Assembly (NCBI RefSeq): GCF_002837275.1
Contig: NZ_NXIF01000054.1
Span: 1-52,821, forward strand
Length of the DNA stretch: 52,821 bases
Direction: 5' to 3'
Origin: Malaciobacter halophilus
GTDB lineage: Bacteria > Campylobacterota > Campylobacteria > Campylobacterales > Arcobacteraceae
Shown here: piece after piece, positions 6,564 to 21,300 of the stretch
How positions within the stretch are numbered: the stretch's first letter is position 1
Layout: each line of letters begins with the position of its first letter
Translations under genes and position numbers: made by a program
The notes under the pieces: model-generated
The model's database searches: none
What the model was told of the DNA's origin: nothing
The model's input: only the letters and a program-made list of their open reading frames with translations

Positions 6564-7481
6564 CTACTTTAATCCTAACTGGTTTAATCTTAAAGATTCA
6601 TTTCCAATACTTTTTACTTTAAGTCCAAATTTTCCTTCAACGATTACAGCTTCTCCTTCACCTATTTTTACACCATTAACAAGTATTTCTAAAGGTTCAT
6701 TAACCATTTGGTCTAACTCTATAATCTCACCTATATCCCAACGTAAAATATCCTTTAATAAAAAGTTTTTTGTTCCAAGTCTAACACTTAATTTTAACTT
6801 TATATTAAACAATAATTGTAAGTTATGTGCTGAATTTTCTGATAAAAGTGAACTAATTCCTAATTGTTCAGAAGAGAGATTAGAATTAGAAGTTTTTGCC
6901 ACTGTTTGCTGTGCATTTTCTTGTGCACTATCAGGAGCTAAAGCAATATCTTCATCTTGTTCTTTTCCTGTAATTGAAGAGATATAAGGCAAAATTAAAT
7001 CATCAAAACTTATTAAAACAGGTAGTTTTTCAGAATCCATCGACAATGAAAATTCATACGTGTTTTGTTTATCTTGCATTACAGATGATTCAACAATTGA
7101 TGAACCTACAAGTTCAAACTTTATGCTACCTATATCAGCAAAATTTTGTGCATTTACAGAAGTTGCAAAACTTCCACAAATATTTGAGGTAATTTCATTA
7201 ACTGCATCAGCTATTTCATCATCTATATGTTCTTTTAAATCACCCATTCCTCCAAGCATAAAGTATTCAAACTTTGTCGCTGAAATAGTAGGTATAAAAA
7301 ATGACCAATTCGTTGTTCCTGCACTAAAATCAAACTTTACATCAACTTTGATACATTGAGTTGATTCATAATCTTCTTGATTTAACTCTTGTATATTATC
7401 TATTGATGCACTTTTTGATAGAAGTTGCTCTAAAGTATTTGTTAACTCGTCTTTTAATATATTTGATAAATCTGATGCCAA
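6564..7481 (-). CDS. fliY: Flagellar C-ring protein FliY (CheC-like domain plus FliN domain)
   Basis: 305 residues in two parts. The N-terminal half has a CheC/CheX-like region with DAVNEITSNICGS at about 92-104, close to the phosphatase pattern D-x3-E-x2-N but with the Asn one place late. An acidic and Gln-rich linker follows (about 185-215), then a FliN/SpoA domain (about 220-303) with KLSVRLGTKNFLLKDIL, LEILVNGVKIGEGE and VIVEGKFGLKV. FliY sits in the switch complex; in Helicobacter and Campylobacter it coexists with FliN, as it does here. The start is TTG with AAAGG 9 bases upstream; no better ATG exists. Confidence 0.88.
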   Translation of the reverse strand: MASDLSNILKDELTNTLEQLLSKSASIDNIQELNQEDYESTQCIKVDVKFDFSAGTTNWSFFIPTISATKFEYFMLGGMGDLKEHIDDEIADAVNEITSNICGSFATSVNAQNFADIGSIKFELVGSSIVESSVMQDKQNTYEFSLSMDSEKLPVLISFDDLILPYISSITGKEQDEDIALAPDSAQENAQQTVAKTSNSNLSSEQLGISSLLSENSAHNLQLLFNIKLKLSVRLGTKNFLLKDILRWDIGEIIELDQMVNEPLEILVNGVKIGEGEAVIVEGKFGLKVKSIGNESLRLNQLGLK

Positions 7482-19764: not shown

Positions 19765-20889
19765 TTAGTTTCCAAATTCTGAGATTAAAGACTCTAAATC
19801 AGCATCATCTAAAACATCTGCTGTGCTATCACCATGTATATGTCTTGCAACAGCAATCTCTTGATGACTACCTTCATCTTCAAATAGATTATTTAAATAT
19901 ATAGAAAGTTTTCTAATTACTGCCATAACTCTTTCTATTTTTTGTCTATTAATATCATGAAATTGCATTAATTCCATTGCTTCAAATATTTGCATATTTT
20001 CAGCATCTAATTTACCATTTATAGAAGCTAAACCCTCTTTTATTTTTGCAGCTTCTTTTAACTGCTCATCAAAAATTGAGATATTTGGAAATTTTTTATT
20101 TAAAGATTCTAAAAGTGCTGTTTGCTTATTTAAAAACTCATCTGTATTTTTTAAAGACTTTTGTACATCATTATTATCATCAAGAACATAACTTAACACA
20201 TCAAAGATTTTAGATGCTTTTTCTTCAGAGTCATTTGCAACTTGACTTAATTGATTTACAACTTTCGTATCTTTTTCTGCTGGTAAAGGAAAAATTCCTT
20301 CATCTATTTTACTCACAATATGTTCTTCAGGGTCATGGCTTTTTTCTTCCACCTTTTCAGTTTTATCTTCAACTACAGGCTTTTCTTGTTTTACTGGTTC
20401 ATTATCAGTAATTCCATCAATACCTGCTAATATATCATCAAAATTATCTTCATTAGATATAGCTTCATTCTCTTGTGAAGATTGTTTTTGGTCTAAAGAA
20501 TCCTCTTTTTCTTCAAAAGAGTCTTCAGAAGATGAGTCAGAAGTATCATCACTTACTCCATCAATTCCTTTTAAAAGCTCATCAATATCTTCATCACTAG
20601 CAGTTGTATCACTATCTTCAACATCATCAATATTTGCTAAAATATCATCTAATTCATCATCACTTGGAGGTTCACTTTGCTCAGATGTTTTATCGTTAGT
20701 ATCTACTGCATCATCTGCTTCAGCTAATAGTTTATCAATATCATCATTTGATATAGGCTCATTACTATCATAAGACTCTGTAGGTTCATCAGCAGCGCTC
20801 TCTTCTACTTTTACTTCTTCAGAATTCTCATTTTCATCTAAATCTAGCCCGTTCATAAGTGATTCTATTTCTTCTTGACTCATACTCAT
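19765..20889 (-). CDS. cheZ: CheZ-type CheY-P phosphatase with long acidic N-terminal extension
   Basis: 374 residues. The C-terminal half (about 205-340) is helical and contains MQFHDINRQKIERVM, in which D312 and Q316 sit four apart exactly like the catalytic D143 and Q147 of Escherichia coli CheZ. The C-terminus, DDADLESLISEFG, resembles the CheY-binding tail of CheZ. The first 160 residues are very acidic and carry repeated peptides of the form (S/N)-acidic-acidic-I/L-D-x-L/I-L: SQEEIESLMNGL at the very N-terminus, SNDDIDKLLAE, SDDELDDILANI, SDEDIDELLKGI and DNFDDILAGI. These resemble the CheY-binding N-terminus of FliM. cheY lies 39 bases upstream in the same operon. A divergent cheZ is known in Helicobacter and Campylobacter (Cj0700), also near this gene neighbourhood. 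No FliM core or SpoA domain is present. Confidence 0.82.
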   Translation of the reverse strand: MSMSQEEIESLMNGLDLDENENSEEVKVEESAADEPTESYDSNEPISNDDIDKLLAEADDAVDTNDKTSEQSEPPSDDELDDILANIDDVEDSDTTASDEDIDELLKGIDGVSDDTSDSSSEDSFEEKEDSLDQKQSSQENEAISNEDNFDDILAGIDGITDNEPVKQEKPVVEDKTEKVEEKSHDPEEHIVSKIDEGIFPLPAEKDTKVVNQLSQVANDSEEKASKIFDVLSYVLDDNNDVQKSLKNTDEFLNKQTALLESLNKKFPNISIFDEQLKEAAKIKEGLASINGKLDAENMQIFEAMELMQFHDINRQKIERVMAVIRKLSIYLNNLFEDEGSHQEIAVARHIHGDSTADVLDDADLESLISEFGN

Positions 20890-20928: not shown

Positions 20929-21300
20929 TTAGTTTTTTAACACTCCATCAAGTTTCTCTTTTAAAATATCTGCACTAAATGGTTTAACAATATAGTTATT
21001 AACTCCAGCTTTTAAAGCTGTAATAACTTCAGATTTACCACCCTCTGTCGTAATCATAATAATTGGAGTTTTTTGATGATTACCTTCTGATCTTATCTTT
21101 TTTACTAGTTCTAGTCCATTCATATTTGGCATGTTCCAGTCAGTTAAAATTATATCATATTGCGATTCAGAAAGAAGTTTCCAAGCTTTTAAACCATCTT
21201 CAGCTTCGTTGAAATCTTCTTTTGAAAAGCCTAACTGCATAACAACATTACCAATAATCCTTCTCATCGTAGAACTATCATCAACTATTAAAATTTTCAT
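20929..21300 (-). CDS. cheY: Chemotaxis response regulator CheY
   Basis: A 123-residue stand-alone receiver domain. The acidic pocket is D7-D8, the phosphoryl acceptor D54 (LTDWNMP), the switch Thr T84 (MITTEGG), the aromatic Y103 and the conserved Lys K106 (VKPF). The DWNMPNMNG motif is typical of CheY that binds the flagellar switch. It is the first gene of the long minus-strand flagellar transcript, followed by the CheZ-type gene, so signal and signal terminator are made together. Confidence 0.96.
   Translation of the reverse strand: MKILIVDDSSTMRRIIGNVVMQLGFSKEDFNEAEDGLKAWKLLSESQYDIILTDWNMPNMNGLELVKKIRSEGNHQKTPIIMITTEGGKSEVITALKAGVNNYIVKPFSADILKEKLDGVLKN

Follow-up and report, generated by a model that had tools for sequence, protein, structure and literature searches.

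A CheZ phosphatase from Malaciobacter halophilus with a candidate multivalent CheY-docking arm

CheZ is usually depicted as an enzyme that holds CheY by a single tail. The Escherichia coli protein (PF04344, PDB 1KMI) is a dimer with the residues D143 and Q147, a single acidic CheY-binding peptide at its C-terminus and no N-terminal arm, and its gene adjoins cheY; peptides of the FliM and CheZ type bind the α4-β5-α5 face of phosphorylated CheY (CheY-P). The switch protein FliM carries one such N-terminal peptide, with the common motif SQ[DA]EIDALL. Campylobacterota CheZ (NF041271, the Helicobacter pylori CheZ type) has the catalytic Asp and Gln on a helix and a FliM-like peptide at both termini, and outside the Arcobacteraceae it has a short N-terminal stretch without internal peptides (one exception in 38). 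Here we describe the CheZ of Malaciobacter halophilus, encoded in contig NZ_NXIF01000054.1, which was analysed over its full 52,821 nucleotides (the window). The cheZ open reading frame (19765..20889, 374 amino acids) lies on the minus strand, a detail omitted by the first-pass annotation, and the cheZ and cheY features below are on that strand. The product resembles other Campylobacterota CheZ at its catalytic pair and both termini, and differs from them in four internal peptides on a disordered N-terminal arm of about 170 residues. It thus presents an array on the phosphatase, unlike the single peptide on FliM. We regard it as probable that the arm is a multivalent docking site for CheY that would act mainly as an antenna for the enzyme.

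The first-pass annotation had read six peptides in this protein as a CheY-binding-like array. We scored them with an 11-column motif matrix built from 25 peptides, namely FliM N-termini, the terminal motifs of CheZ from outside the Arcobacteraceae, and the E. coli FliM and CheZ peptides as confirmed from MG1655; Arcobacteraceae CheZ was excluded from the training. At a threshold of 2 bits, the scan of the window CheZ recovered the six claimed sites and no others. Peptide 1 (SQEEIESLMNG, residues 4-14, 20848..20880, score 21.6, predicted helix 5-13) is the N-terminal motif and peptide 6 (DDADLESLISE, residues 361-371, 19777..19809, score 5.7, helix 362-373) the C-terminal one. The internal sites are peptide 2 (SNDDIDKLLAE, residues 47-57, 20719..20751, score 13.1, helix 48-61), peptide 3 (SDDELDDILAN, residues 76-86, 20632..20664, score 6.2, helix 81-85), peptide 4 (SDEDIDELLKG, residues 98-108, 20566..20598, score 11.0, helix 99-110) and peptide 5, the last before the folded domain (NEDNFDDILAG, residues 146-156, 20422..20454, score 7.1, helix 150-155). 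The match of peptide 5 is modest and starts at residue 149, overlapping the peptide in a shifted register; judged from homologues, F150 occupies the isoleucine position, and a similar sequence, DDILAGIDG, is present in several genera. AlphaFold2 predicted a short helix at each of the six peptides, joined by linkers with a predicted local distance difference test score (pLDDT) largely below 50. Composition-preserving shuffles gave 0.11–0.18 internal matches at thresholds of 5 and 4 bits, as against the four observed, and none of 5,000 shuffles attained four. When 67,683 residues from the window and the other loci were scanned, no protein outside the CheZ family had more than two matches. The resemblance of the peptides to the CheY-binding peptides of FliM and CheZ is well supported, and multivalent CheY binding by the arm is likely on this sequence evidence. 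A DNA-level motif scan of the whole genome was discarded, as it returned 108 matches and the reversed control 111; single matches are uninformative and clustering alone is informative.

The array was then compared across relatives. Both terminal motifs occurred in all 38 CheZ examined from outside the Arcobacteraceae (these helped to train the matrix, and their scores are not independent), and internal matches were found in one of the 38. In 80 Arcobacteraceae CheZ there were 132 internal matches versus 5.9 expected from composition-preserving shuffles. The first and last peptides are ancestral because they are present in all 38 outside sequences, and the internal ones represent an expansion within the Arcobacteraceae whose copy number turns over fast. 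All six peptides of the first-pass annotation stand, and the special part of the array is confined to the four internal ones. The number of internal peptides ranged from zero (some of g2, g8, g64 and g68) to six (g4, L111), and look-alike neighbouring peptides there suggest recent duplication. A tree built from the folded domain implies 31 or more changes in copy number, and the sister species L035, the nearest relative, has lost peptide 2, so that the array survives the comparison but its peptide number is not conserved even between sister species. Within the genus, internal peptides were more conserved than linkers (identity 0.59–0.80 versus 0.36), with a ratio of nonsynonymous to synonymous polymorphism (pN/pS) of 0.41 versus 0.63, and 4 of 169 circular shifts matched the peptide-linker difference in conservation. 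Across six congeners the identity of peptide 1 was 1.0 and that of peptide 4 was 0.80; Q5, E6 and L11 in peptide 1 and L368 in peptide 6 were invariant in an alignment of 102 homologues. Conservation above the linkers together with labile copy number indicates that the array persists as a type of site while single copies are gained and lost, the pattern expected of short docking motifs.

The CheZ identity of the protein and its catalytic pair are well supported. NF041271 matched residues 155-373 at E=5.4e-35, with 121 of the 350 bits of the curated cut-off, and the PF04344 match to residues 213-347 was also sub-threshold (18.4 of 30.7 bits). The 350-bit cut-off is narrow, because it was reached in 23 of 298 genomes of the class as against 249 with any match, and many Campylobacterota CheZ are probably missed by automatic annotation. 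D312 (19954..19956) and Q316 (19942..19944), which the first-pass annotation had proposed as the catalytic Asp and Gln, were invariant across 102 aligned homologues. Sequence similarity to E. coli CheZ is remote; the profile alignment (13.6% probability, E 0.002, as a single comparison) was gapless over the key stretch and paired D312 with D143 and Q316 with Q147. AlphaFold2 placed both residues, four positions apart, in the second helix of a hairpin (residues 206-337, 19879..20274; helices 206-266 and 271-337) with pLDDT mostly above 90. Structure comparison of this prediction with E. coli CheZ (1kmi_Z) gave Z 8.4 over 121 aligned residues at a root-mean-square deviation of 3.5, and many unrelated hairpins scored equally well or better. 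A Foldseek search with the predicted structure found no match with an E value under 0.001, and CheZ did not stand out among its results; a phmmer search of PDB sequences with the cheZ product retrieved no CheZ. By itself the fold search proves nothing, since long helical hairpins such as the predicted one resemble many unrelated proteins.

We also examined the potential partners of the arm. The cheY gene (CheYz type; 20929..21300, 123 amino acids; Pfam Response_reg, 5.6e-30) precedes cheZ by about 39 nucleotides on the minus strand, directly adjacent as first annotated. Among solved structures, H. pylori CheY is the closest to its product (best PDB match, 1.3e-45). The protein keeps E. coli D12, D13, D57, W58, T87, K92, Y106, K109 and K119 (D7, D8, D54, W55, T84, K89, Y103, K106 and K116 in its own numbering), with Gly at A90 and K91 and Val at I95. 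By alignment, this CheY retains most FliM-contact residues, in agreement with the inference that in Arcobacter it is CheYz that binds FliM (PMC9321776). The FliM N-terminus, LSQDEIDALL, was near-invariant in 31 Arcobacteraceae FliM with one motif each; FliM gave one strong matrix match, as expected since FliM peptides trained the matrix. The N-termini of FliY (6564-7481) and FliN were read and contained no FliM-like peptide. Near fliM and beside fliQ, locus L154 (1032-2132, minus strand) encodes a highly acidic protein of 366 amino acids with a receiver-like N-terminus and one matrix match only, which, judged by eye, is a possible counterpart of ChePep. Another protein, of 149 amino acids (L156:11673-12122, plus strand), near the cheZ locus of G321, has one FliM-like match, SDEDIESLIKE (score 8.1).

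Based on these data, we propose the following mechanism. The C-terminal hairpin would dimerise, presumably to give a four-helix bundle like that of E. coli CheZ, and D312 and Q316 would promote hydrolysis of the aspartyl phosphate of CheY-P. Each of the six amphipathic peptides, five in the arm and one at the C-terminus, may form a short helix on CheY-P, on the same face that is bound by FliM and by the E. coli CheZ tail. With six peptides per chain, a dimer would serve its two active sites with as many as 12 docking sites, and the tethered CheY-P, held at high local concentration, could be handed to the active sites. Competition with FliM would then be a by-product. Several points weigh against this model. 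The equivalent of E. coli CheY K91 is G88 in the adjacent CheY. Peptides 3, 5 and 6 have low matrix scores and could be poor binders. Furthermore, the labile copy number (31 changes or more) and the species with no internal peptide suggest that most copies are not individually essential.

The first-pass annotation had viewed the phosphatase as able to hold several CheY-P molecules or to compete with FliM, which would sharpen or buffer the CheY signal. In such a sink model the arm would mainly hold CheY-P off FliM, and the distant active sites would act slowly on arm-bound molecules. The arm peptides are of the same class as the FliM peptide, number as many as eight in one chain (L111) and lie about 50 to 190 residues from the bundle, all in keeping with such a role. 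For buffering, however, CheZ sites and CheY-P would need to be present in similar numbers, and tethers as long and flexible as these ought still to be able to reach the active site. As far as the sequence goes, feeding of substrate fits as well as FliM competition, sharpening or buffering; on balance we hold a sink to be rather unlikely as the main role. It is less likely still that the arm docks other receiver-domain proteins, such as further CheYs or ChePep, or aids the polar placement of CheZ, and we give this only a slight chance. In favour of such a role, ChePep localises H. pylori CheZ (PMC11237671, PMC7750401), Arcobacter has four further CheYs (PMC9321776) and this genome has 79 receiver-domain matches. 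That the internal peptides are a functionless by-product of drift in a low-complexity arm would fit the high copy-number turnover and the acidic, D/E/S/N-rich composition of the arm, but is very improbable given about 0.1 matches in shuffles versus four (5.9 versus 132 family-wide) and the better conservation of peptides than of linkers. The antenna model is the one that we favour.

We next considered the surroundings of the gene and its paralogue. On the 3′ side of cheZ the translations read as flagellar genes resembling a hook-basal-body protein, FlgB, FliF, FliG and FliH, and in Arcobacter the largest flagellar locus includes cheYZ (PMC9321776). In passages of the A. butzleri genome paper, CheC is given as the phosphatase and CheZ is mentioned only as replaceable by CheC (PMC2147049). 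We found a second, shorter protein of 117 amino acids, here termed mini-CheZ (L033 / L155:4322-4675; G000:C90:61321-61671). Like the window CheZ it has an invariant, catalytic-type Asp and Gln (D63 and Q67) and a CheY-binding-like C-terminal peptide, predicted as a helix, and unlike it the hairpin is predicted to be shortened and the arm is missing. Mini-CheZ aligned to the CheZ profile with an hhalign probability of 99.5%. Of 104 Arcobacteraceae genomes searched with mini-CheZ, 92 gave a match, although a few of the lowest-scoring matches are to cheZ itself; the protein is encoded in most Arcobacteraceae and has apparently been overlooked. The motif MTQEELDA is retained at the N-terminus of longer versions, L159 and L160, which come from two other genera. 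In the tree, mini-CheZ members stood apart from both CheZ groups, on long branches whose exact placement is unsure.

A search of the open-access literature, which covered the work on H. pylori CheZ and ChePep in part, returned no account of the array; the terminal motifs may have been mentioned earlier. These results suggest that a two-ended hold on CheY is a general property of Campylobacterota CheZ. We put forward more tentatively, as a possibility somewhat short of even, that in the Arcobacteraceae the arm is a tunable, fast-evolving docking array in which the number of sites would determine how strongly the swimming signal is amplified or buffered. The family provides a natural series of two to eight peptides per chain, in which the relation of docking-site number to the speed and gain of the phospho-relay can be asked directly. 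If the proposed reading is true, the arm of this CheZ would give bacterial chemotaxis a multivalent means of ending its signal.
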